DNA of 64,000 nt, taken from positions 1-64,000 of the forward strand of contig CALWKS010000001.1 in NCBI GenBank assembly GCA_944381325.1, written 5' to 3'. This DNA comes from an uncultured Christensenellaceae bacterium (GTDB lineage Bacteria; Bacillota; Clostridia; Christensenellales; UBA3700). The position numbers and the translations under genes are program-made. Below are positions 2,904 to 16,527 of this stretch, piece after piece (position 1 is the first letter of the stretch; the number at the start of each line of letters is the position of its first letter). The notes beneath the pieces were generated by a model. That model was given only the letters and a program-made list of their open reading frames with translations, was not told where the DNA came from and searched no databases.

Positions 2904-3314
2904 ATGAAGAAAACGCAAGAGCAGATTCATAAGAATATGCAAAATGTACGGAATAAGGATTCCGTAATAGAAATCAAGTTGCGATCTTTGTTATGGAAGA
3001 AAGGATATAGGTATCGCAAGAATGTAAAATCTATTTATGGACATCCGGATATTGCGTTTATAGGCAAAAAAATAGCAATATTTTGTGATAGTGAATTTTG
3101 GCATGGATACGATTGGGAAAATCGTAAAAACGATTTTAAGACACATCGCGAATTTTGGATTCCGAAAATCGAAAGAAATATGGCTCGAGATAGAGAGGTA
3201 AATGCAAAACTTCAATCCGAAGGGTGGATAGTATTGAGATTTTGGGGGCAGGAAATAAATCAGGATACTGAAGGTTGTATAGCGAAGATAGAAGAATTTT
3301 TGATTAACGAATGA
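2904..3314 (+). CDS. Vsr-fold endonuclease without the zinc site
   Basis: Vsr nucleases nick next to T:G mismatches made when 5-methylcytosine deaminates. The 136-residue length and overall pattern match: E23 in SVIEIKLRSLL, catalytic-type D49 in HPDIAF, the FW pair in DSEFWHG (65-66), H67, and the helix HREFWIPKIERNMARD. The positions that hold zinc in E. coli Vsr (C66, H71, C73, C117) correspond to E64, Y69, W71 and G115, so no zinc cluster can form. It opens an operon that ends with a C5-cytosine methyltransferase, which fits repair of methylation damage, but a direct anti-phage nuclease role is equally possible. The start codon lacks a clear Shine-Dalgarno. The stop is nine bases before the next gene. 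Confidence 0.8.
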   Translation: MKKTQEQIHKNMQNVRNKDSVIEIKLRSLLWKKGYRYRKNVKSIYGHPDIAFIGKKIAIFCDSEFWHGYDWENRKNDFKTHREFWIPKIERNMARDREVNAKLQSEGWIVLRFWGQEINQDTEGCIAKIEEFLINE

Positions 3315-3323
3315 GGGGGAAAG

Positions 3324-5960
3324 ATGGGAAAGCTTATTTCGGCTTTATTGGATGATTTTCAAAAACAGCATCCATTGTACTGTGAAATTGAATTTGAAGG
3401 GGAAAACGGTTCACCGGAATTTTTACATCCGATATTTACTTTTACGCAATATATCATAAACCAATTTCTTGTAAGAGGAGAAAATAGAATTGCAATAGTT
3501 CTTCCTGATAATGAGACGAGCATAATTCCTATGGTAATCATGCATTGTTTCGATTGCATTCTAAACGAGGAAGGTTATTCGGAGAATTTACTGGATGATT
3601 TAAAGAAGGGCGATCGTCTTAGAATAAATAACGCAGTTGTTGAGTTTTATGGTTTTGATTCAAAGAGTAAAACTATAGAAATAAAAACAGATAAATCCGG
3701 GAGAATTAAAGAGATACCTGTAACTGCTCCCGTGTTATATAATGCTATTCTCAATGCCGAAAAAACGAAAGCGGAGCTTACATCTTTTGACCGTTGGAAA
3801 GATGCGAGGAAAGCTATTTTGAACGACTGTTCCGAAGCAGATTTGTTGACGAATATAAAAAGTAAACGTACGCTTTTGAATCAGACAATTATTTTTATGA
3901 CACCGAAAAATGATTTGAGGGAATTATTTGAAGATGTGAAAGTCGGCGGAGTCGCTATAGAGGATATATTGTCATTCGGAAAAATAAATCTGAATAAAGA
4001 GCAAAAGTACGAGCTTTATAATGGAGGTAAATTGGCAGGTATTCCGGCAATTACCGCGACGTCCGATATGGAGGATACAGCAGATGCGGTAAAGAAGGTT
4101 TTTCCTGGTAAAATTAATTGCATTTTCGTATCTCCCGAAAAATCCGGGGAAGTTGCAGAAGATTCGTATAATTTAAAAAAGTGCCTTAAGGAAAATATTC
4201 CAATGGTGGTTTTCCTACATGAAAAAGATTTGGAAAATTATAAATTGCTCAAAGGCTATGATTTTAAAATATGGCATTGGAAACCTTCAACAATAAAAAG
4301 CGAAGCATTTATGACCGACTCCGAGGACAAGAAAGAAGTTTTGTTCGGAACTTTGTCCCGTAAAATAAATTGCGCTTCTTTTGCCGAAATCAAGACGATA
4401 GCCATTGAAGCAGAAGAGTTAAAAGATTGCGGAGAAAAAATTTTTGCCGTATCAAGCAAATGTATCGAATATGCCGCAATTGTCAAAAAGACAATAGGCA
4501 TATTATGGAAGATTTACAAGGATTACGAAAGAGTCTGTTATATTGATGAGGAAACAATAAAAGAAATTATCGACAAAATTACGGAAGTAGAAAATACATG
4601 GGCAGAATTGTCGAATACATATGAAGGACAACAGATAGTCGAAGATGTCTCCGACATTATTTCGTCGGAATTTGCATTCATAAAAGCATCGAATAATCGT
4701 AAGCAAGATCAAATAGTAAAACGGTTGGAAGATTGTGAGGGACGTTCCGTAGTGATAATGCCAGACGGCTATCCGCATATGTCGGCAGTTAAAAAGTTTG
4801 TTGCACAAGTTTCAAAAGGAAAATCAAATGCACTAACATTATCCGAATTTCAAACGAATCAGAGCAAATGTTTTGAAACATACAATATGCTTTTGGTTCC
4901 TTGGTTTGATAAAGATTGTTATACCGAAATAAAACAATTGTATTGCTATGATACTTTATTGTTTATATTATATGATTTTGAAGATAAAAGGCGAAGGAGA
5001 TTGATACGAGAAAACGATGCCATTGTACCGCATAAGCAAATTAAAGCCGTGGCAGAAGAATTAAATATAGTCGATAACGATTATAGCGAACAATCCATAG
5101 ATGATGTTACGAATGAGTATGTCGCCGATGAGAATGGGAGAAATGAAGAAGTTGAGAAAGAATTCTCTGTAGAAAGAATAGATTTCAGATCGACGGTCAG
5201 ACGGAATATTTTTTCGGGAACGTTTAAATCTACAAGTGCAAAAAGAGACTCGAACTCGTTGGAAGAAAGTGTATTGGTACTTTTCGATAATGACAGATAT
5301 GTATATTTTTATCCTAAGCATAAGGTTATTACGGTAACGAGAATAGTAAATCGAGTGGAAGATGTTGCATATGTCAAAGAGGCAAGATATCTTAAAACGG
5401 GCGATGTAATAGCAGTAAGTTCGGGAGACAAGGATATTGTCAGAGAAATAGCCGATAAAATGATGAAAGCGGAAGGAAAGGAAGGAATGCGCGATATTGC
5501 GTTAAAGTGGCATGATATATTGGCAGAAGTTGCCAAAGGTCATTCCGTAAGAGAAATTGCCGAAATATTAAATAACTATGATGCGGATTGCAGTGAACAG
5601 CAATGTAGAATATGGTTAATCGGAGAAACCGTTATGCCGAGAGGGGTGAACGTATTATATGCAATTGGAAAAGCGGCGAGAGCTATCCCGGGGAAGGAAG
5701 AAGTTGCAGACCGGTTTCTTTCGGAAATCGAAAATATATATAGATGCGGCAGCGAAATCCACGGTTACCATCAAAGCGCCGGTCGGGAAATGAGACGAAG
5801 GTTGGCTCAAAAGGCTGAAGAGATAAGAAAATGTGTGGCAAACGGAATGGAAGGGAGTGTAGAAGGTATAGGGGAAATAAAACTTTATAAAGTGGAAGAT
5901 ATAGATTTAGAAAAATATTATATCGAGTGGAACAAACTGAACAAAATCGAGGAAGAGTGA
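3324..5960 (+). CDS. drmE: DrmE-like protein of class 2 DISARM
   Basis: This 878-residue protein has no obvious enzymatic motif. Its size, its place before drmA-drmB-drmMII and its general pattern match DrmE, the class 2 DISARM protein of unknown activity. Features seen are an N-terminal hydrophobic segment (RIAIVLPDNETSIIPMVIMH), a region near residues 730-770 that could be helix-turn-helix (HSVREIAEILNNYDADC), and a C-terminal stretch IGEIKLYKVEDID. GAGGGGG precedes the start. Only one base separates it from the next gene. Base composition is AT-rich like the rest of the operon. The name is a family guess supported by context; a profile search would settle it. Confidence 0.7.
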   Translation: MGKLISALLDDFQKQHPLYCEIEFEGENGSPEFLHPIFTFTQYIINQFLVRGENRIAIVLPDNETSIIPMVIMHCFDCILNEEGYSENLLDDLKKGDRLRINNAVVEFYGFDSKSKTIEIKTDKSGRIKEIPVTAPVLYNAILNAEKTKAELTSFDRWKDARKAILNDCSEADLLTNIKSKRTLLNQTIIFMTPKNDLRELFEDVKVGGVAIEDILSFGKINLNKEQKYELYNGGKLAGIPAITATSDMEDTADAVKKVFPGKINCIFVSPEKSGEVAEDSYNLKKCLKENIPMVVFLHEKDLENYKLLKGYDFKIWHWKPSTIKSEAFMTDSEDKKEVLFGTLSRKINCASFAEIKTIAIEAEELKDCGEKIFAVSSKCIEYAAIVKKTIGILWKIYKDYERVCYIDEETIKEIIDKITEVENTWAELSNTYEGQQIVEDVSDIISSEFAFIKASNNRKQDQIVKRLEDCEGRSVVIMPDGYPHMSAVKKFVAQVSKGKSNALTLSEFQTNQSKCFETYNMLLVPWFDKDCYTEIKQLYCYDTLLFILYDFEDKRRRRLIRENDAIVPHKQIKAVAEELNIVDNDYSEQSIDDVTNEYVADENGRNEEVEKEFSVERIDFRSTVRRNIFSGTFKSTSAKRDSNSLEESVLVLFDNDRYVYFYPKHKVITVTRIVNRVEDVAYVKEARYLKTGDVIAVSSGDKDIVREIADKMMKAEGKEGMRDIALKWHDILAEVAKGHSVREIAEILNNYDADCSEQQCRIWLIGETVMPRGVNVLYAIGKAARAIPGKEEVADRFLSEIENIYRCGSEIHGYHQSAGREMRRRLAQKAEEIRKCVANGMEGSVEGIGEIKLYKVEDIDLEKYYIEWNKLNKIEEE

Positions 5961-5961
5961 T

Positions 5962-7644
5962 ATGGCAAAAATGTATCCGGAAAAATTTCCGAAAGATAAT
6001 CCCAGTTCTGGGGAGAAGAAAGTGTTTGAACATTTTAAGTCGCAAGCTCCCGATAATTGGATAGTGTTGCATTCTTTGAGATTACCGGAACATCCAAAAG
6101 TCGTTTACGGAGAGGCGGATTTTGTTGTTATAGCTCCCGGAATAGGGGTTATTGTTTTGGAAGTTAAGTCCGGCGGGGTAGGGTTTGACGGAACTTATTG
6201 GGTTTATAAAGACAGACACGGTAAGGAAACCAAGAAAACACGCGGACCTTTCAGCCAGGCAAAAGAAGGAATGTTTAAAGTCGTAGACATGATTTCAGAG
6301 AGATTGGGATCGAGTTTTGACAGAAAACATATTTTGTACGGATACGGGGTCATTTTTACGGATGAAGAGAATTTCCCAAAAGAAGCCATTGTTGAAGATG
6401 AGCCTTGGAGACTGTATGAGAAAAGCGATGGCGACAATTATAGTGAATTTACGGTGAAGCTTGCCGAAAATTTTATAAACGAATTGAAAATATTGAGAAA
6501 AACGGTTCCCGACAAGTTGACAGAATCCGACGCTGAAAGGATACGTTGCTGTTTGCGTCCCGAAATTGATTGCATACTGCCTTTGAAGAGTTTTCTTGAA
6601 GAAAGTGAAGATGATATTATTCGTCTTACGAATGAGCAATACGCATGTTTGGATGATATCCGAGAAAACAAGCGTGTTGTTATTCAAGGTGGGGCAGGTA
6701 CAGGTAAAACATTGATAGCCATACAAGCCGCAAAAGAAGCTTCAAATGAGGGGGTGAAAACGGCATTGTTTTGTTATAATCGAAATTTGGCTACACATCT
6801 AAAAAACAATTTGTCCGATTCTGACGTAGAAGTTTTCACGTTGCATACTTTTATGTGTAAAACAGCAGGGGTGCATGTGACCGATGCGGATAAAGATTTC
6901 TTTGAAAATGAACTACCTGAAAAAGCTTGTGCTGTAATCGACAAGCCGCTATTCGACAAAATTGTTGTAGACGAATTTCAAGATATATGTTTGCCGAAAT
7001 ACTTAAAATTTTTTGACAAAATATTAAATAAAGGTCTTGAGAATGGGGAATTTGCGTTTTTCGGTGATTTTTCAGGGCAGGCAATATATAACAGGCATGT
7101 TACACTTGCAAATTTAGAGGCTTTTGTACATTATTATACAAAAAAATTTCTGACGATTAATTGCAGGAACACAAAATTTATAGGCAAAGAAGTTGTTTGC
7201 ATTTCAGGATACAATGATGGTAAATATCTGCTTAAGGTTGCAGGTGAACCGGTAGATTATATTGAATGGAGTAAAAGAGAGGAAGAAAAACAAAAGCTCA
7301 AAGATTTGTTGAAGGATTTAAAAAATAAAGGTATAACTGCGGAATCAATAATGATTTTGTCTCGGTTAAAGAGAGAAAAATCGGTAGTTGGGGAGTTGGA
7401 TCCTTATGGATATTACATTGAGGACTACGGAAATGCTGGAACAAATATTTTGGCATATTTTTCCACTATATATGCATTCAAAGGATTGGAAAGCAAAATA
7501 GTTATATTGGTGGACATAGAAAACTATGATGATGTAAAATTAATGTATACGGCGCTTAGCAGAGCACGAAGTAAATTATATGTGTTTGAAAGTCCGTTAG
7601 CCTATAAGCAGAGAACAGAGAAGTCGTTGAGGGGGATGAACTAA
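5962..7644 (+). CDS. NERD-nuclease / superfamily 1 helicase fusion
   Basis: The 560-residue protein joins two parts. Residues 10-75 are a NERD (nuclease-related) domain with E18 in SSGEKKVF, D53 in GEADFVVI and E67-V-K69 in LEVKSG, the D...ExK set of restriction-like nucleases. Residues about 235-550 are a UvrD/Rep-type helicase: Walker A GGAGTGKT (243-250), Walker B DEFQD (337-341), TINCRNT, and a motif VI region with TALSRARSKLY near 530-540. The first codon follows drmE by one base and the stop abuts the drmA start, so it is embedded in the operon. In canonical class 2 DISARM the accessory nuclease is the phospholipase-D protein DrmC, which is missing here; this enzyme may take its place (inference). 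Confidence 0.85.
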   Translation: MAKMYPEKFPKDNPSSGEKKVFEHFKSQAPDNWIVLHSLRLPEHPKVVYGEADFVVIAPGIGVIVLEVKSGGVGFDGTYWVYKDRHGKETKKTRGPFSQAKEGMFKVVDMISERLGSSFDRKHILYGYGVIFTDEENFPKEAIVEDEPWRLYEKSDGDNYSEFTVKLAENFINELKILRKTVPDKLTESDAERIRCCLRPEIDCILPLKSFLEESEDDIIRLTNEQYACLDDIRENKRVVIQGGAGTGKTLIAIQAAKEASNEGVKTALFCYNRNLATHLKNNLSDSDVEVFTLHTFMCKTAGVHVTDADKDFFENELPEKACAVIDKPLFDKIVVDEFQDICLPKYLKFFDKILNKGLENGEFAFFGDFSGQAIYNRHVTLANLEAFVHYYTKKFLTINCRNTKFIGKEVVCISGYNDGKYLLKVAGEPVDYIEWSKREEEKQKLKDLLKDLKNKGITAESIMILSRLKREKSVVGELDPYGYYIEDYGNAGTNILAYFSTIYAFKGLESKIVILVDIENYDDVKLMYTALSRARSKLYVFESPLAYKQRTEKSLRGMN

Positions 7645-10600
7645 ATGAAAGATAGTATAAAAGTTAGGGATGAATTTACGAGTACAGTTAAAAAATTGCT
7701 GTTCGGACCGAATCCGCTTGAATATTTTTGTCAGGATAACGGAGAAGAGAAATTGTTCAATGATCCTCCGCTCGAAGTTTATATTACCGGCATTTTGTTT
7801 CCTCAAAACGAAGAAAGGTTAAGAGGAATAAATTCGTTTCAATTGGAAGAAACGGGTTGCGAGGAAGATGCGGATATTGATGAACCGGAAGAATATGAAG
7901 AGCTACCCGATAAAAATGAAGCAGAAGATATCATTGATAGCGAAACTTCCAAGATAAATGCCAAATTTCAATCTGCTATGGGGGTAACTTTGTGTGTGAA
8001 AGAGAAAAGCGGACTGATCATAAGTATTTCCGCGGGGACATATCATCCGGAAAAGTCGAAATTCCCTTTAAGAGCCACGGTAGTGGATGGGGAAAGGAAG
8101 ATCGAAAAGTCGGATTATGAAAAGGATTGTTATTTTCGTAATCAACATGATTATCGACTTGTTGTGTCTGAAGCGGAAATGCCTACGGAAAGAAAAATCC
8201 ATAAAGTATTTCAAATCAAAGACAATGCCGGAAACAATGTGAAATTGCAGATTTCGGTTACATATAGAATGACGCTTGAGAACGGGCAGGGTAAGATATT
8301 TACCGTTACGCTTATTAATTCGAATTTTGATGAATATGCGGACCATTCTTTGAATTATAAAAAATGTTGGTTTCAGGTCGGTTTTTCCGTGGAAAGTTCG
8401 GAAAAATTTTTGCCTTTGCCGAGAAATTTCGATATGAGGTCGGAAGATGAAGATTATCGTCTCAACGCATTGTTATATAGAGATGTTCGTGATTATGCTA
8501 TAGGACACGGATGTGCCGCGACATGGAATGGAGAAAACCCAAAAGTCATTAATGCGGAATTTATGCCCGAATATGAGGTTAAACCGATCGTTCCAACGAG
8601 CTTGCCCGGCGTAAAGCTGGATATGAAGCTTTATTACAAAGACAGAGATGCGGCAATAGTTGACTTAAGTAAATTGGCAGAGGAATATTCCAAATGGATA
8701 GATAAAGAAACGAAGGAGGTTGCTACCATTCCGGAAGAGCATCGTGTAGTTGCAGACAGACAAATTAAGCTGTGCGGACAATGCTTGGATAGAATCAAGA
8801 AAGGAATAACCTTGTTACAAAAGGACGATCAAATTTGGCAGGCGTTTGCTTTTGCGAATAAAGCAATGTTGATGCAACAATTGCATTATAGGTTGCCCTT
8901 GGTGAAGTACAGCGATTATGATTCTCGAAATTTTCACGGCATTTTAGAAAAAAGTATAACCTTGCCGGATGTGGAAGATGAAAATACTTGGTTTGGAAAA
9001 GAAAAGTTTACTTACGGAAAGTGGAGACCATTTCAAATAGCCTTTCTTGTAATGAATCTGTGTTCGATGAGCGATTTGAATTCGGAAGAGAGAAAGATAG
9101 TGGATTTGATATGGTTCCCTACTGGTGGAGGTAAGACGGAAGCATATTTGGGTCTGACGGCTTTTTCGATTTTTCTGAGAAAACTAAGGAATAAGAAAGA
9201 CAGAGGAACATCGGTAATAATGAGGTATACGCTGCGTCTTTTGACTTCTCAACAATACGAGAGGGCAGCGTCGCTTATTTGTGCGATGGAGAAAATCAGG
9301 TCGGAGAATCAGGATATATTGGGGGAAGAAAGAATTACAATCGGGTTATGGGTAGGATTATCACTTACCCCCAATAATCAAAAGAAGGCTGCCGACAAGA
9401 TAAAAGCAATCATAGGACAAAAGAAAGAAGAAAACGCATCGATTATTTTAAAATGTCCATGGTGTGGGGCAAGTATGCAAACTTATATCGATAAATCCGA
9501 TAATGTACGTACGCCGGGATATGTTGCGGGAGATGATGAGGTGCATTTTCAATGTGATAATCCGAATTGCGATTTTCATGACGATGATTTTGAGTTGCCA
9601 TTGAGACTATATGATGACGACATTTACGCCAATCCTCCGACTTTGCTTTTCGGCACGGTTGATAAATTTGCGATGTTGCCGTTCAAACCGGAAGCAAAAA
9701 GCCTGTTTGGAGGGGATAATGACAATGCCGCACCGGATTTGATAATCCAAGACGAGTTGCATTTGATAACAGGTCCGCTCGGGTCGGCGGTCGGGATATA
9801 CGAAGTGTTGATTGAAGAGCTATGCAAAAGCAACGGCGCAAAACCCAAGATCATTGCTTCTACGGCTACGATAAGTCATGCTCGTCAACAATGCAATGCA
9901 TTATATGGTTGCGGTGAAGAAAACGTGTTCCAATTTCCTGTACAGGGAACATCTTATAGAGACAGCTTTTTTGCGCATGAAGAAGATTGCTCGGCAGAAG
10001 ATTCTTCTGCAACAGGCAGAAAATATATCGGTTTATACGGAGCGTCGGCGTCTACCTCAGCGTCGGCATCAATTGCGACTTTCGCTGCGCTTATGTATGC
10101 CGCGAAAGCCATCGATGTCGATAAAGAGGAGGACAGAGATCCATATTGGACTAATTTGGCGTATTTCGGAAGTATGCGAGAATTGGGACAGGCTGCGACA
10201 TGGTATATTACTGATATAAAAGAAAGGTTGGAAACGATTTATAAGTGGAGAATGGAAGCCTCTCTCGATCGCGCAAAGAGGAGATATATTTTTGGCAGCG
10301 GACAAGCGGAACTCACAAGTCGAGTGTCTAATGACGATATAACTAAAATTTTGAAGAAACTTGAAGAAAGTTATTCCGGTTGCGCGGAAACTCCGGATGA
10401 TGAAAATCCGGAGAAGAGGGAACATCCTCTCGATATTTGTCTTGCAACGAATATGATATCCGTCGGTGTCGATGTGTCCAGACTCGGATTAATGACCGTT
10501 ACCGGTCAACCGAAATCCATATCCGAGTATATTCAAGCCACAAGCCGTGTCGGAAGAGATGCAAAACATGCTCCTGGTGTTGTTTACGTGATATATAACA

Positions 10601-11106
10601 CTTCAAAATCAAGAGACAAGTCATATTATGAAAAGTTTCAAAGTCAACACGAAAAACTTTATTATAATGTTGAACCGACATCGGTAACGCCTTTCTCCGA
10701 ACCGATGAGAGAAAGAGCGTTGCCTGCTATTTTGACAGCTATTCATAGATTGATATATTCTTCTGCAGATAAAAGGGCAAAAGCGGATTATATACCGAGT
10801 GATGCTGAGGTAAAAGCAATCGTTGAGATGTTTACAGCAAGAGTTTCCGGCATCGATCCGGATGAAAAAGAGGATACAAAACGTCAATTGATTAATTGTT
10901 GTAAGCTATGGAAACATTGGATGCCAACAATATATAATTACAGCTATAATGGCGTTTTTAAAGAAACACCTCCGTTGCTTGTTCAGGCTGGTACAATAAG
11001 ACCGGATTTATGGAAAGGAAAAGGCTGGGATGCACCAACTTCAATGAGAAATGTGGACGGAACATGTGGGCTGGACACCACAAAGACTATAGTAAAACAA
11101 GATTAA
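7645..11106 (+). CDS. drmA: DrmA, DISARM SF2 helicase
   Basis: DrmA is the helicase core of DISARM and works with DrmB on incoming phage DNA. The 1153-residue product shows Walker A PTGGGKTE (492-499), Walker B DELH (703-706), and the second RecA domain with ATNMISVGVDV (934-944) and motif VI QATSRVGR (964-971). A four-cysteine zinc ribbon (C604, C607, C637, C642) is inserted between the two halves, as in the DrmA/MrfA group. An acidic N-terminal extension (residues 60-95) precedes the helicase. It starts directly at the stop of the NERD-helicase. Everything needed for ATPase activity appears intact. Confidence 0.9.
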   Translation: MKDSIKVRDEFTSTVKKLLFGPNPLEYFCQDNGEEKLFNDPPLEVYITGILFPQNEERLRGINSFQLEETGCEEDADIDEPEEYEELPDKNEAEDIIDSETSKINAKFQSAMGVTLCVKEKSGLIISISAGTYHPEKSKFPLRATVVDGERKIEKSDYEKDCYFRNQHDYRLVVSEAEMPTERKIHKVFQIKDNAGNNVKLQISVTYRMTLENGQGKIFTVTLINSNFDEYADHSLNYKKCWFQVGFSVESSEKFLPLPRNFDMRSEDEDYRLNALLYRDVRDYAIGHGCAATWNGENPKVINAEFMPEYEVKPIVPTSLPGVKLDMKLYYKDRDAAIVDLSKLAEEYSKWIDKETKEVATIPEEHRVVADRQIKLCGQCLDRIKKGITLLQKDDQIWQAFAFANKAMLMQQLHYRLPLVKYSDYDSRNFHGILEKSITLPDVEDENTWFGKEKFTYGKWRPFQIAFLVMNLCSMSDLNSEERKIVDLIWFPTGGGKTEAYLGLTAFSIFLRKLRNKKDRGTSVIMRYTLRLLTSQQYERAASLICAMEKIRSENQDILGEERITIGLWVGLSLTPNNQKKAADKIKAIIGQKKEENASIILKCPWCGASMQTYIDKSDNVRTPGYVAGDDEVHFQCDNPNCDFHDDDFELPLRLYDDDIYANPPTLLFGTVDKFAMLPFKPEAKSLFGGDNDNAAPDLIIQDELHLITGPLGSAVGIYEVLIEELCKSNGAKPKIIASTATISHARQQCNALYGCGEENVFQFPVQGTSYRDSFFAHEEDCSAEDSSATGRKYIGLYGASASTSASASIATFAALMYAAKAIDVDKEEDRDPYWTNLAYFGSMRELGQAATWYITDIKERLETIYKWRMEASLDRAKRRYIFGSGQAELTSRVSNDDITKILKKLEESYSGCAETPDDENPEKREHPLDICLATNMISVGVDVSRLGLMTVTGQPKSISEYIQATSRVGRDAKHAPGVVYVIYNTSKSRDKSYYEKFQSQHEKLYYNVEPTSVTPFSEPMRERALPAILTAIHRLIYSSADKRAKADYIPSDAEVKAIVEMFTARVSGIDPDEKEDTKRQLINCCKLWKHWMPTIYNYSYNGVFKETPPLLVQAGTIRPDLWKGKGWDAPTSMRNVDGTCGLDTTKTIVKQD

Positions 11107-11117
11107 GGAGTAGAGAA

Positions 11118-12977
11118 ATGGCGACAAATAAATATCCTATCAGAAAAAGTGCTTTAATATCGCCTTGGGGTGTGGGCGCAATCGTGCCTGTTCCGAATAA
11201 CGAAACATTTATGGTCGCAGGATTGGATTTTTGGTTTGATAATAAAAATCCGCTTGATCCTCAAGGAAAGTATTTAAGTTATGAAATAATAGATGAGCGT
11301 TTGTCGGAAAGACTTGCGGGGAAAAGATTTGTGCAGCCGCCGGAGTTTTTAACCAAAGACCAAGATGGAGAACATGCTGAAATAAGAATCCCGGCAGTAA
11401 GGTTTCCTCGTTTGTATTATTGTCCCGTTTGCGGAAACATTGAAGAGTTGGGGCCAATGTCTGATTTGCGTTGCCCCGGAGATAATCGGAAAGGGAAACC
11501 CGAAGGAACATATTGCTCCAAAAAGAAAGCTGCGAGGGGTAAAACACCGTTAATGGTTCCCGAAAGATTTGTCGCAATTTGCGAAAACGGGCATATAGAA
11601 GATTTTCCGATTGCCGAATGGGTACATAGAAAATCCGGAAAAGAATATGATCCATCAACTTGTAAAATGTATAGAAGCACCGGTAGAAATTCAGCATCTC
11701 TTACCGGTATAAGATACACTTGTACTTGCGGTGCAAGCGCAACAATGAGGGGAGCGTTCGATTGGGATGAGGTAAAGCAGGAAAGCGCATTGAGTAAGAT
11801 CGGATACAAATGCAATGGAAAAATGCCTTGGCTTGGTATTGATGGTTCGGAATGCGACAGACCTTTAAGAGTTGTTCAAAGAGGTGCGTCCAATGTTTGG
11901 TTTCCGGATATCATCAGTTCAATTTATATACCAGAACCTGAAATTAACGGTGAGACAAGAGAGTGCATAGAAAAAGTGGTCAAAAGAGTCGAATCGCAAA
12001 GAAAAAACGGTGAAATCGATGAAGAAATGATAAGATCACATGTGGTAAGTTTGGCTGATTGGGATGATAATATTGATAAGGAGTTGGCTTTTAAAACGAT
12101 AATCCATAAATTAAAAGGAGGAGAGGAAACTTCAGAAAAAGATGAAGACGATTATCGCAAAGCGGAGTATGACGTTTTGATCCGTGATTATGAAAAGGAA
12201 GGAAGCGAACTGCATGTCAGAAATTATGATTCAAGTGAATATAACGGATTATGGTTTCTTAAAAGCATATCCTTGATAAGTAAATTAAGAGAAACCAGGG
12301 TGTTGACAGGTTTTAGAAGAATGTCTCCGCAGGCCACGCAGGCACCGATATCCGATTCAAACAATAGTTGGTTGCCTGCGATAAAAAACGAAGGCGAAGG
12401 CATAATGTTTTGTTTCGACATTGAAAAATTAAAAAAATGGGCAGCAAGAGATGATGTAAAGAGACGTGTCGATAAAATCAGACAGAATGTCCAATACAGC
12501 GTCGGACGATGTGATGAAATCAGTCCTTCTTTTGTGTTGATACATACTTTTGCGCATTGTCTTATTACTGAATTGTCTAACGAAAGCGGCTATTCTACGG
12601 CTTCTATTAGGGAACGCATATATTGTCCTAAATTTTGTAATGAAGATGCGCCTGAAATGGCGGGAGTGCTTATCTATACGGCATCGGGTGATTCCGAAGG
12701 TTCTTTGGGAGGCTTGGTAAGGCAGGGAAAGGCAGGGCGTATCGAAGAAATAATAAGACATGCACTGCATGAAGCGGAATGGTGTTCTGCTGATCCGGTA
12801 TGTATTCAAAGTAACGGTCAGGGCATCGATGGTGCTAATTTGGCGGCATGCCATAATTGCACGCTCTTGCCTGAAACATCGTGTGAAAATCGCAACACTT
12901 TCTTGGACAGAGGATTGTTGGTAGGCGTTCTTGACGATAAAAGCATTGGATTTTTTAATAATGAAGAAAATAATTAA
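11118..12977 (+). CDS. drmB: DrmB, DUF1998 zinc protein of DISARM
   Basis: DrmB carries the DUF1998 domain and pairs with DrmA in a complex that senses and acts on unmodified DNA. The 619-residue protein begins MATNKYPIRKSALISPWG, with AAGGAG eight bases upstream of the ATG; a longer frame starting at 11010 would overlap drmA heavily and has no such site. Zinc-type motifs include CPVC (102-105), CENGH, and CTCGAS. The DUF1998 C-terminus is clear: IYTASGDSEGSLGGLVRQGK, and CHNC (578-581) followed by the cysteine at about 588. Its last 17 bases overlap the methyltransferase gene. Confidence 0.9.
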   Translation: MATNKYPIRKSALISPWGVGAIVPVPNNETFMVAGLDFWFDNKNPLDPQGKYLSYEIIDERLSERLAGKRFVQPPEFLTKDQDGEHAEIRIPAVRFPRLYYCPVCGNIEELGPMSDLRCPGDNRKGKPEGTYCSKKKAARGKTPLMVPERFVAICENGHIEDFPIAEWVHRKSGKEYDPSTCKMYRSTGRNSASLTGIRYTCTCGASATMRGAFDWDEVKQESALSKIGYKCNGKMPWLGIDGSECDRPLRVVQRGASNVWFPDIISSIYIPEPEINGETRECIEKVVKRVESQRKNGEIDEEMIRSHVVSLADWDDNIDKELAFKTIIHKLKGGEETSEKDEDDYRKAEYDVLIRDYEKEGSELHVRNYDSSEYNGLWFLKSISLISKLRETRVLTGFRRMSPQATQAPISDSNNSWLPAIKNEGEGIMFCFDIEKLKKWAARDDVKRRVDKIRQNVQYSVGRCDEISPSFVLIHTFAHCLITELSNESGYSTASIRERIYCPKFCNEDAPEMAGVLIYTASGDSEGSLGGLVRQGKAGRIEEIIRHALHEAEWCSADPVCIQSNGQGIDGANLAACHNCTLLPETSCENRNTFLDRGLLVGVLDDKSIGFFNNEENN

Positions 12978-14097
12978 AGCAATTGATTTGTTCTCCGGTT
13001 GCGGAGGAGTATCGATCGGGTTGACGCAGGCAGGTTTTGATGTTGCTTGCGCAGTTGAAATCGATAAAGCTGCCGTTAAAGCATACAAAGGATATCATTC
13101 GTTAAGCAATGTTAATGTTATCAATGATGATATATGTAAAATAAGCGGAAAGGACATATTAAAAAAAGCAAGGATAAAAAAAGATGATCTTTATTTACTT
13201 GCGGGGTGTCCGCCTTGTCAAAAGTTCTCAATGCAAAACAGAATTCATAATCGAGATGAAAAAAATATTGGCGAAGTAAAAAAATTGTTGATGCAGTTTA
13301 AACGCATAATAAAAGAAATATATCCGCCGTTTGTTCTTATGGAGAATGTGCAGGGGATAAAGTCTTCTTTCGGAGGGAAAATATTAAATGAATTCATTTG
13401 TGATTTAACTGATAAAAATGCTCCCGATGATGAAAGATATTATATCGTTTCAGGTGTGGTAAATGCGGCAAATTACGGAGTGCCGCAATTACGGAAACGA
13501 TTTGTGTTACATGGGGTTAGATGTGATGTGTTAAAAAGAATGGAAAGTTTGAATTTGACTTTAACATTACCCGTACCAACGCATAATAAAGATGGCACAG
13601 ATGGTAAACAAAAATGGATTACTGTCAGAGAGACTTTTGAAGGACTGCCGCCCATACATGAAGGGGAAAGGTATAGCGATGAAATCATAAAGAATCATTA
13701 CTGTGCGCATTTATCAGATAAAAATTTGGAAAGGATAAGGATAATTCGTCAAAACGGAGGCAGTCGAACTTCTTTGCCTGAAAATATGGTTTTGGAATGT
13801 CATAAAAAATATTCGGGGCATACGGATGTGTATGGTATTATGGATCCTGATGCTCCTGCACCGACAATGACCGGAGGATGTTTGAGCTATTCTAAAGGAA
13901 GGTTTGGCCATCCGTTTGAAGATAGAGCAATATCCGTGAGAGAAGCGGCAAGAATCCAAACTTTTCCCGACGACTATGTTTTCGGAGAGAGCCTTACGAA
14001 AGCTGCTTTGGAAATAGGAAACGCCGTACCTGTTAAATTGGTAAACGCAAGCGGAAAAGTTTTTATCGACATTATAAAAGAGTTGAGAAAAAATTAA
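12961..14097 (+). CDS. drmMII: DrmMII, C5-cytosine DNA methyltransferase
   Basis: It transfers a methyl group from S-adenosylmethionine to cytosine and would mark host DNA as self. The 378-residue protein contains the ordered C5-methyltransferase motifs: FSGCGGVSIG (I), GCPPCQKFS with catalytic C86 (IV), MENVQG (VI), LRKRFVLHG (VIII), then a target-recognition region and EIGNAVPV (X). The ATG at 12961 overlaps drmB by 17 bases; an earlier in-frame start at 12931 would add ten residues before the conserved IKAIDLF. The recognition sequence cannot be read off. A 16-base-pair terminator follows. Confidence 0.92.
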   Translation: MKKIIKAIDLFSGCGGVSIGLTQAGFDVACAVEIDKAAVKAYKGYHSLSNVNVINDDICKISGKDILKKARIKKDDLYLLAGCPPCQKFSMQNRIHNRDEKNIGEVKKLLMQFKRIIKEIYPPFVLMENVQGIKSSFGGKILNEFICDLTDKNAPDDERYYIVSGVVNAANYGVPQLRKRFVLHGVRCDVLKRMESLNLTLTLPVPTHNKDGTDGKQKWITVRETFEGLPPIHEGERYSDEIIKNHYCAHLSDKNLERIRIIRQNGGSRTSLPENMVLECHKKYSGHTDVYGIMDPDAPAPTMTGGCLSYSKGRFGHPFEDRAISVREAARIQTFPDDYVFGESLTKAALEIGNAVPVKLVNASGKVFIDIIKELRKN

Positions 14098-14120
14098 ATT
14101 GTGCACAGAAATAATTACCA

Positions 14121-14161
14121 AAAAGAATACAAACCTATTTGTTTAAGGTTTGTATTCTTTT
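14121..14161 (+). terminator. Terminator of the DISARM-like operon
   Basis: Perfect 16-base arms (AAAAGAATACAAACCT at 14121-14136 and its complement at 14146-14161) enclose a nine-base loop and end in TTTT. The symmetrical A/T ends mean it could act in both directions. Confidence 0.8.
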
Positions 14162-14371: not shown

Positions 14372-15499
14372 ATGGACGATAAAATTTTCAATTTAATAAT
14401 AAAGCAATCAGAGCAGTGTCGCACGCCGGAGATTTTGAAAGCTATAAAAGAACAAGAAAGGTTGTCAAACATAGTGCATGAGAAAAAGTTTGAATTTGAT
14501 AAATATAGAGATCGCTCTATTTCGTTGTTGCAAGTTGGGACAAGAAAATTAAAGGAAAAATATCCTGACTTATTTAAAGATATGCCGAAAGAAGATATAA
14601 AATTAGATATAGTACAAGGAGCACTTGATTTTGCAATTAATAATTCCAAAAAGTATTCGGAAATTTTAGACAAGATGAAAGAAATTTCGGAGCTTAATGA
14701 AAATAATAAAATTCAGCCATTGCTGACAAAATCATTTTATGAATATATAGTTGCCTTTTCAAATTTGGAATCGAAATTTAAAGAAGACAGGGAAAGGTTG
14801 TTTTCTTCAGAATACAAAGATAAAATGGCATCATATGCCGATGAGGGGTTGTTATTGTATCATTTAGAATCACCAGATTTGCCTATATTGGATAAAGATA
14901 TCCAAATGAAGGATATAATTGATTATTTTCTTTTTGAGGATTGTATGGGCTTGAGAATCGTGTTTTCCGCGTTGCTAAATATTGACAATCCTGGAGTTTC
15001 AATGCAACGAAAGCAAGAAGATATAAGAATAACGATAGAGCTTATAAATAACGGGTATTTCAGAAGTGCGACAAGGAATCTATTTTCTTTATTAGACAGT
15101 GAGCATAAAAAGGCTGCAAATGCATATGAGGGTATAGCTAAGAGAAAAAACTTGTTCAAAAACGGTTTACAGCGTTCTCAAAAAATAGATGTGTTAATTG
15201 ACAGTATTGACGATCCTTGGATGGAAACTGCGTGGAAAAAAATTAATAATTACTATAAAAAAGTTGTAGCAACAGTTCCTGTTGATGGGGTGATTCATCG
15301 AAACTCAATTGTCCACGGAGATTATGAAAGTGATTTGATAGATGTAAAGGAGTCTTCGGCAATAAAACTTTCACTATTATATCTTAATTTGCGTTTAATT
15401 TCTGACTATCTATGTAATAAGGCGGAAATATTTGAAGAGCTTTTGCTATATTTGCCTTCGATAATTCTCTTTTTAAAAGGGGAGGGAACAAATAGTTAA
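14372..15499 (+). CDS. Large helical protein with C-terminal HEPN-type RX4H motif
   Basis: The family of this 375-residue protein is not recognised. It is predominantly helical and charged. Near the C-terminus it carries R310-N-S-I-V-H315-G, the Rx4H signature of HEPN ribonucleases found in abortive-infection and toxin systems. The start is fixed by a GGAGGGGGG box seven bases upstream. It stands alone: a terminator precedes it, its own TATACT box lies near 14332, and no nucleotidyltransferase partner (the usual HEPN antitoxin) is adjacent. Being next to a DISARM-like operon in an AT-rich island supports a defence role, probably cutting RNA on infection, but this is inference. Confidence 0.55.
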   Translation: MDDKIFNLIIKQSEQCRTPEILKAIKEQERLSNIVHEKKFEFDKYRDRSISLLQVGTRKLKEKYPDLFKDMPKEDIKLDIVQGALDFAINNSKKYSEILDKMKEISELNENNKIQPLLTKSFYEYIVAFSNLESKFKEDRERLFSSEYKDKMASYADEGLLLYHLESPDLPILDKDIQMKDIIDYFLFEDCMGLRIVFSALLNIDNPGVSMQRKQEDIRITIELINNGYFRSATRNLFSLLDSEHKKAANAYEGIAKRKNLFKNGLQRSQKIDVLIDSIDDPWMETAWKKINNYYKKVVATVPVDGVIHRNSIVHGDYESDLIDVKESSAIKLSLLYLNLRLISDYLCNKAEIFEELLLYLPSIILFLKGEGTNS

Positions 15500-15589
15500 G
15501 TTGGCAATAACGAAAACAGATATGCTGGTTATTAAAATGAATTACAGGTTAAATTAAATTTTATCCCAAACCAATCTTTTGCAAAGAAA

Positions 15590-15621
15590 AATACGAACCT
15601 TGAATTTATAGGGTTCGTATT
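15590..15621 (-). terminator. Terminator of the tRNA operon
   Basis: Ten-base arms (AATACGAACC and GGTTCGTATT) enclose a 12-base loop. On the minus strand the stem is followed by a T-rich run, placing the end of the tRNA transcript just beyond tRNA-Lys. It may also stop transcription from the HEPN gene on the plus strand. Confidence 0.75.
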
Positions 15622-15630
15622 ATTCATGCT

Positions 15631-15707
15631 TGGTGCACCTTCAGAGACTCGAACTCTGGACCCACTGATTAAGAGTCAGTTGCTCTACCAACTGAGCTAA
15701 AGGTGCA
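15631..15707 (-). tRNA. tRNA-Lys (anticodon CTT)
   Basis: A complete cloverleaf is visible with a seven-pair acceptor stem (TGCACCT with AGGTGCA), anticodon stem ACTGA/TCAGT, loop CTCTTAA giving anticodon CTT, T-loop TTCGAGT, and an encoded CCA end. It is the last tRNA of the cluster, and its 3' end faces the accessory island, the usual position for an integration site. Confidence 0.95.
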
Positions 15708-15743
15708 TATTCTGGAAAGCGGTTGCCCGCATTATTGTTATGT

Positions 15744-15818
<75 letters not shown>

Positions 15819-15833
15819 ATATTTTTGTTTTGA

Positions 15834-15917
15834 TGGTGCGGATGAAGAGACTCGAACTCCCACGTCGTAAACACCAGATCCTAAGTCTGGCGCGTCTGCC
15901 AATTCCGCCACATCCGC
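15834..15917 (-). tRNA. tRNA-Leu (anticodon TAG)
   Basis: This class II tRNA is 84 bases long with an extended variable arm. The anticodon stem CCAGA/TCTGG encloses loop CTTAGGA, giving anticodon TAG for CUN codons. CCA is encoded. Confidence 0.95.
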
Positions 15918-15932
15918 TCAGTTATTTCAGAG

Positions 15933-16008
15933 TGGTGACCCATCCGAGAATCGAACTCGGGACACCATGATTAAAAGTCATGTGCTCTACCGACTGAGCT
16001 AATGGGTC
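15933..16008 (-). tRNA. tRNA-Lys (anticodon TTT)
   Basis: The acceptor stem GACCCAT pairs with ATGGGTC, and the anticodon loop CTTTTAA gives TTT for AAA and AAG. CCA is encoded. It is the second lysine isoacceptor in the cluster. Confidence 0.95.
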
Positions 16009-16094
16009 AAAACCTTAGTTATTTTAACGCATCTGCCGAAAAATTGCAACTGTTTTTGCGTATATTTTCAACTTTTGCGACCCGTTATCAAGTT

Positions 16095-16170
16095 TGGCAG
16101 GGGTGGAAGGATTTGAACCCTCAAGTGCTGGAGTCAGAGTCCAGTGCCTTAACCATTTGGCGACACCCCT
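16095..16170 (-). tRNA. tRNA-Gln (anticodon CTG)
   Basis: The acceptor stem AGGGGTG pairs with CACCCCT, and the anticodon loop CTCTGAC gives CTG. CCA is encoded. It is a near-relative of the adjacent tRNA-Gln(TTG), suggesting local duplication. Confidence 0.95.
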
Positions 16171-16193
16171 ACGTGTCCATATTTTTTTACCCT

Positions 16194-16268
16194 TGGCAGG
16201 GGTAGCAGGATTTGAACCTACGAATATCAGAGTCAAAGTCTGATGCCTTACCGCTTGGCGATACCCCT
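16194..16268 (-). tRNA. tRNA-Gln (anticodon TTG)
   Basis: The acceptor stem AGGGGTA pairs with TACCCCT, and the anticodon loop CTTTGAC gives TTG for CAA. CCA is encoded. Confidence 0.95.
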
Positions 16269-16275
16269 GTGTTAA

Positions 16276-16353
16276 TGGGGTGAGTAGAGGGAGTCGAACC
16301 CTCGGCCTCAAGAGCCACAATCTTGCGCTCTAGCCAACTGAGCTATACCCACC
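16276..16353 (-). tRNA. tRNA-His (anticodon GTG)
   Basis: The anticodon loop TTGTGGC gives GTG. An additional 5' G (G-1) faces C73, the identity element of histidine tRNA, and is encoded in the DNA. CCA is encoded. The acceptor stem includes one G-U pair. Confidence 0.95.
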
Positions 16354-16359
16354 ACACAT

Positions 16360-16436
16360 TGGCGAGCCTGAAGGGATTTGAACCCCCGACACACGGCTTA
16401 GAAGGCCGTTGCTCTATCCAACTGAGCTACAGGCTC
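16360..16436 (-). tRNA. tRNA-Arg (anticodon TCT)
   Basis: The acceptor stem GAGCCTG pairs with CAGGCTC, and the anticodon loop CTTCTAA gives TCT for AGA and AGG codons. CCA is encoded. Confidence 0.95.
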
Positions 16437-16453
16437 ATGCAGAGTTACCGCAT

Positions 16454-16527
16454 TGGAGCGGGTGATGGGAATCGAACCCACACGACCAGCTTGGAAGGCT
16501 GGGATTCTACCATTGAACTACACCCGC
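16454..16527 (-). tRNA. tRNA-Gly (anticodon TCC)
   Basis: The acceptor stem GCGGGTG pairs with CACCCGC, and the anticodon loop CTTCCAA gives TCC for GGA and GGG. CCA is encoded. It is the first tRNA after the cluster promoter. Confidence 0.95.

Follow-up and report, generated by a model that had tools for sequence, protein, structure and literature searches.

A DISARM-like operon carrying a NERD-helicase and no drmC points to a separate, putative class of defence systems

The DNA stretch analysed here (the window; 64,000 nucleotides, positions 1 to 64,000 of contig CALWKS010000001.1 from the uncultured Christensenellaceae bacterium GCA_944381325.1) carries at 2904-14097 six open reading frames (ORFs) on the forward strand, separated by 9, 1, 0 and 11 nucleotides, with a 17-nucleotide overlap between the last two. 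They encode an accessory Vsr-family endonuclease of 136 residues (2904-3314; TIGR00632), a DrmE-family protein of 878 residues (3324-5960; NF038316), a 560-residue protein in which a NERD nuclease is fused to a UvrD/GajB-like superfamily 1 (SF1) helicase and which is the proposed effector (5962-7644; PF08378, UvrD/AAA_19), the YprA-type superfamily 2 (SF2) helicase DrmA with 1153 residues (7645-11106; PADLOC DrmA), the DUF1998/MZB protein DrmB (11118-12977; NF038324, MZB PF09369), and a C5-cytosine DNA methyltransferase of 378 residues (12961-14097; PF00145). The gene calls were mechanical; the most likely starts of DrmB and the methyltransferase are the ATG codons at 11118 and 12961. Profile searches of each protein confirmed the six packed genes and the identities listed in a preliminary description of this DNA. 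We think it fairly likely that this is a complete operon of a distinct, putative DISARM-like defence class, with a core of the DrmE-family protein, the NERD-SF1 helicase-nuclease, DrmA and DrmB, an exchangeable methyltransferase and, in this instance, Vsr, working as proposed below.

The operon had been described as lying behind one promoter and before one terminator. The terminator is borne out by a strong intrinsic hairpin at 14120-14161 on the forward strand, with an AT-rich 16-bp stem and a T-rich tail (folding energy -21.5 kcal/mol, z = -7.0), which a simple terminator scan missed because the loop is 9 nucleotides long. A consensus scan did find a promoter-like site at 2842-2870 on the same strand (TTGACT-17-TAAAAT, with TG before the -10 element), but matches to this consensus are about equally common in shuffled sequence, so the site is weak evidence.

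The absence of drmC, claimed earlier, was upheld for the operon and for the remainder of the genome (assembly 92.8% complete): no phospholipase D (PLD) protein is encoded in the operon, PF13091 had no match genome-wide, and PF00614 gave only a sub-cut-off match (12.8 bits versus 21.9). Scanning with a DrmA profile yielded 80 loci from genomes and 17 from viral contigs, in which genes were labelled with profiles built here and score thresholds. A second sample was anchored on DrmB alone in 1,388 genomes from four phyla, and the 63 loci of at least 9 kb were analysed. Twenty-two had a NERD-helicase, 17 had DrmC, 24 had neither and none had both (Fisher p = 2e-4, a value that ignores shared ancestry among loci that are not independent), in line with drmC being missing whenever the NERD-helicase is present, which the preliminary description had raised as a question. 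PLD-like ORFs elsewhere in NERD loci were all long (668-1052 residues) and lay outside the cassette; a Pfam scan, made for one of them, showed a PLD-helicase fusion.

Conservation of gene order was likewise found. Among 45 loci with both a NERD-helicase and DrmE, 34 have the order DrmE, NERD-helicase, DrmA, DrmB seen in the window, and 7 have DrmE, DrmA, DrmB, NERD-helicase. These loci span about ten phyla, including Bacillota, Bacteroidota, Ignavibacteria, Pseudomonadota and Myxococcota, with further groups in Acidobacteriota, Verrucomicrobiota, Actinomycetota, Fibrobacterota and Dormibacterota. The cassette also occurs on a predicted viral contig (L094, IMG/VR) and on a mobilizable plasmid (L245, Rhodococcus opacus pROB02), which indicates that the class is mobile. 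In one locus, an AIPR/AbiR-like gene (MzaE model; L016:3568-5625) directly precedes the cassette, and ORFs of similar length occupy the same position in L017, L049 and L094.

The NERD domain of the window protein scored 45.2 bits against PF08378 (cut-off 22.1), and its SF1 helicase domains (UvrD/AAA_19) were also above cut-off. In an alignment of 37 NERD-helicases, where columns are on average 35% identical, the NERD residues E18, E51, D53, E67 and K69 are invariant, as are Walker A, DExQD and further residues of the SF1 part, indicating that nuclease and motor are both under selection. To examine which genes travel together, we calculated Spearman correlations of pairwise distances in the 23 loci that have all six genes. 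The correlation with DrmA was 0.92 for DrmB, 0.81 for the NERD-helicase and 0.79 for DrmE, compared with 0.50 for Vsr and 0.27 for the methyltransferase, which separates a core of DrmA, DrmB, DrmE and NERD-helicase from the exchangeable methyltransferase and Vsr.

Both nucleases, the NERD-helicase and Vsr, had been proposed to stand in for DrmC. The NERD-helicase retains this role as a candidate, being exclusive with drmC, fixed in order, co-varying with DrmA and invariant in its active site; Vsr was rejected as a substitute. A Vsr gene is present in 23 of the 45 NERD-helicase and DrmE loci, sometimes upstream, sometimes downstream, and on both strands. Since 7 of 24 DrmC loci have one too, its presence does not depend on DrmC being missing. 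The window protein is nonetheless a Vsr by profile (TIGR00632, 139.9 bits; cut-off 97.85). Aligned to the structure of E. coli Vsr (1cw0), whose catalytic Asp, His and Glu residues and zinc ligands we take to be those compared here, it keeps the positions of Glu25, Asp51, His69 and Asp97, while Thr63 and His64 are replaced and the zinc-ligand cysteines are absent. Vsr genes usually accompany cytosine methyltransferases (PMC12907096), and by analogy this protein is most likely a companion of the methyltransferase that would repair T:G mismatches arising from 5-methylcytosine deamination.

The methyltransferase is the sole C5-methyltransferase match in the whole genome (PF00145, 191.1 bits; cut-off 22). 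It scored 160 bits against DrmMII models, and general type II methyltransferase models scored higher. A methyltransferase-Vsr pair of type II kind and a DISARM-like core might be two independent systems sharing one defence island, since in related loci these two genes are exchangeable and are found on either side and either strand, and the methyltransferase hardly co-varies with DrmA. We consider this quite improbable: a C5-methyltransferase lies close by in 40 of the 45 NERD-helicase and DrmE loci versus 9 of 24 DrmC loci, and in the window all six genes form one tight operon with one terminator. Methylation-based self recognition, carried over by analogy, is plausible for the single operon that we favour.

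Some observations weigh against this assignment, besides the shared ancestry noted above. The methyltransferase is the most exchangeable gene, and its low correlation with DrmA (0.27) weakens the self-marking step; distances of Vsr and methyltransferase correlate at 0.16, so the two do not co-vary and the repair role is unproven. By the profile used here, 12 of the 22 NERD loci in the DrmB-anchored sample are without DrmE. Finally, four loci in the same DrmA clade (L144, L146, L244 and L246) have DrmE, DrmA and DrmB and neither NERD-helicase nor DrmC, so the NERD-helicase is not indispensable throughout the clade. The same three-gene arrangement was seen in L047; L244 lies on a Nostoc plasmid and L246 on a Priestia plasmid. 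Such loci are possibly a minimal form or users of host nucleases.

The DISARM-like nature of the operon was supported, the DrmA helicase gene adjoining a separate DUF1998 gene for DrmB. The window DrmA matched PADLOC DrmA with 686.6 bits (E 9.8e-207), and DrmB scored 433.8 bits against NF038324 (cut-off 240), with MZB PF09369 above cut-off. Against the equivalog DISARM_DrmAS (NF038325), DrmA reached 879.6 bits, under the cut-off of 950; because L010, a relative whose core genes stand in the same order, clears this cut-off at 1034 bits, the shortfall is a near miss. A canonical class 2 DISARM with the gene order DrmE, DrmA, DrmB, DrmC, methyltransferase (L250) served as control and scored 1004.6 bits for DrmE (NF038323) and 1219.6 bits for DrmA (NF038325). 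It comes from the one genome among 189, from one order of Bacillota, in which canonical class 2 drmE was found.

Apart from the swap of nucleases, the window gene order is that of L250, and the operon could accordingly be class 2 DISARM after a recent loss of drmC, relying on DrmAB translocation alone or on a host PLD nuclease and carrying the NERD-helicase and Vsr as passengers. Dispensability of DrmC in tested DISARM and the proposed recruitment of host PLD nucleases (PMC9142583) are in its favour. However, in a 156-row DrmA tree the window falls inside a 58-row clade with 45 NERD loci and no DrmC locus, whereas class 1 and canonical class 2 both lie in a 31-row clade that has 23 DrmC loci and no NERD locus. 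A mixture-model tree of 42 rows is in agreement, and a topology that places L250 in the window group was rejected (approximately unbiased test, p = 9e-66). Together with the genome-wide lack of a PLD gene above cut-off and the NERD-helicase being conserved in position, active site and co-variation, this makes recent drmC loss highly improbable. The designation "class-2-like" was not sustained, given that DrmA lies outside the class 1/class 2 clade and DrmE misses the class 2 equivalog. From the separate clades and the missed equivalogs, the operon appears to belong to a separate, unnamed DISARM-like class with a four-gene core in about ten phyla, and not to be class 2 minus a gene.

Two other arrangements were seen among the loci. 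The nearest DrmA relatives of canonical class 2 (L140, L103, L105 and L109) come from DISARM operons that include DrmC and, upstream of DrmA, a gene for a type III-restriction-like helicase/endonuclease (PADLOC REase_III, BPTD_3080-like). A group of mostly actinobacterial DISARM-like loci without DrmC (L066:3368-9993, L056, L070, L077-L080, L084, L086, L088, L089 and L217) carries, ahead of DrmA-DrmB, a TmtA-like/SF2 protein of 1.5-1.85 thousand residues together with a GajB-like UvrD helicase, and is apparently another unnamed DISARM-like class.

The earlier assignment of the 878-residue protein to DrmE held at the level of the family model (DrmE_fam NF038316, 191.7 bits; cut-off 80) and failed at the class 2 equivalog DISARM_DrmE (NF038323, cut-off 250 bits), which gave no match up to E 0.1. 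An AlphaFold model built with 27 relatives (pLDDT 79) resembles SF2 helicases with two RecA-like domains over residues ~10-590 (Foldseek E 8e-6; best Z 13.3, root-mean-square deviation 6.2 over 345 positions), and SF2 helicases filled the structure-comparison (VIA) list. Neither Walker A nor DExD/H was found in the window protein or its 27 aligned relatives (28 sequences). The C-terminal domain (~645-830), made up of a beta portion and a helix-turn-helix-like portion, is the most conserved region (pLDDT 92.5). Alone, it matched beta folds of the HINT/intein kind (Z 7.7) and helix-turn-helix domains of the XRE type (Z ~5), and Foldseek returned nothing under E 0.3; since these structural matches are weak, we claim no family for it. 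Near the N-terminus, one stretch weakly matched in sequence the Mfd domain that binds RNA polymerase (E 7e-4). On the basis of the model, DrmE is newly predicted to be an inactive SF2 helicase with a helix-turn-helix-like tail.

In many NERD loci (among them L035, L036, L040, L045, L046, L048, L050, L055, L069 and L245) DrmE is seemingly split into genes for ~300-350 and 500-560 residues. Scans with DrmE or DrmA as single proteins gave no matches, and alignment-based search was required. The plasmid search found DrmA on 85 plasmids and no DrmE relatives, and tblastn against phage records found relatives of neither protein.

In DISARM, DrmAB loads onto unmodified 5'-overhang DNA, methylation lowers its ATPase activity, and DrmC is dispensable and fails to co-purify (PMC9142583). 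By analogy with this complex, we infer that DrmAB and DrmE would engage phage DNA and that the NERD-helicase would cut it. The DrmA-DrmB pair would engage the ends or single-stranded overhangs of foreign DNA and then translocate, with DrmE, whose SF2 helicase part is predicted dead and whose tail is helix-turn-helix-like, binding DNA or holding the putative complex together. The NERD-helicase would then be recruited, its SF1 motor unwinding the DNA and its PD-(D/E)xK nuclease cutting it, in the role generally ascribed to DrmC. The methyltransferase would lower attack on host DNA, and Vsr may repair the mismatches that methylation brings about.

Following sensing by DrmAB/DrmE, the NERD-helicase might instead act as an abortive effector on host DNA or RNA. 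DISARM is regarded as non-abortive, and an SF1 motor with intact motifs, paired with DrmAB, suggests processive work on DNA ends. We regard an abortive effector as rather unlikely, even though a suicidal back-up nuclease function has been suggested for NERD domains in BREX PglW (PMC12839542) and the PADLOC model nearest to the window protein, RTasNERD-Hel, represents the NERD-helicase from a reverse-transcriptase defence system. More tentatively than the assignment to a distinct class, the degradation of phage DNA that we prefer can be extended to a third phylum-spanning DISARM class, in which a DrmE pseudo-helicase scaffold and a NERD-SF1 effector replacing DrmC would form with DrmA and DrmB a four-protein machine with three helicase folds that unwinds unmethylated phage DNA and shreds it.

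Just upstream of the operon, the window encodes a Fic-domain protein (2067-2693). Downstream are an orphan ORF of 375 residues without family (14372-15499) and then nine tRNA genes on the opposite strand (15631-16527), a region (14372-16527) that is possibly an island boundary. In the genus, DrmE was found only in the source genome, itself one of the 13 searched, which indicates a patchy distribution and fits a transferred defence system.

The existence of DrmE_fam and DrmB_fam models at NCBI shows that curators already knew of homologs outside the DISARM equivalogs. The YprA preprint mentions, for this clade, "many uncharacterized DISARM-like" classes; its accessible part does not describe the present one. 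No description of DrmE with a NERD-helicase was found in the literature, supplements and the founding DISARM paper aside; a supplementary listing is possible. Since DISARM can do without DrmC and often lacks it (PMC9142583), the way in which it destroys phage DNA is an open question. A widespread sister class with an invariant-site helicase-nuclease inside a drmE-drmA-drmB operon, never alongside drmC, makes this question testable, and the predicted dead helicase with its DNA-binding-like tail offers a concrete hypothesis for the role of the DISARM subunit DrmE. If correct, the third-class proposal would give DISARM-type immunity a defined nuclease.

Compared with known systems, class 2 DISARM (drmE-drmA-drmB-drmC-drmMII) is similar in the order of DrmE-family protein, DrmA, DrmB and C5-methyltransferase. 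The DrmA proteins of L250 and the window are 33% identical, and the DrmE proteins are homologous by hhalign (probability 99.3); unlike class 2, the window has the NERD-helicase between drmE and drmA and no drmC. Class 1 DISARM (drmD, drmMI, drmA, drmB, drmC; for example, Nostoc plasmid L247) shares the separate DrmA and DrmB genes. The window operon lacks its DrmD, adenine methyltransferase and DrmC and has DrmE and the NERD-helicase; no drmD SNF2 helicase or drmMI adenine methyltransferase was found among the operon genes or the scanned flanking ORFs. TALON (YprA-type helicase, NERD nuclease, TPR-CSD, TBP; PMC12458937) also combines a YprA-type helicase with a NERD nuclease gene; its YprA protein is ARMADA-like and its genes include TOTE-type ones, whereas the window operon has split DISARM-type DrmA/DrmB and lacks genes for TPR-CSD and TBP. 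The NERD plus SF1 architecture is common to RTasNERD-Hel, the best PADLOC model of the window protein (155.9 bits), and to C3a187 (NERD+UvrD, 83.8 bits), but RTasNERD-Hel systems include a reverse transcriptase, which the window operon lacks, its partners being DrmA, DrmB and DrmE. The SF1 half resembles Gabija GajB and UvrD helicases, matching sequences of both whose structures have been solved; the Gabija nuclease is a separate OLD-type GajA, in contrast to the fused NERD domain. RecBCD and AddAB, in which motors are paired with a nuclease, offer a rough parallel to the proposed four-protein machine.

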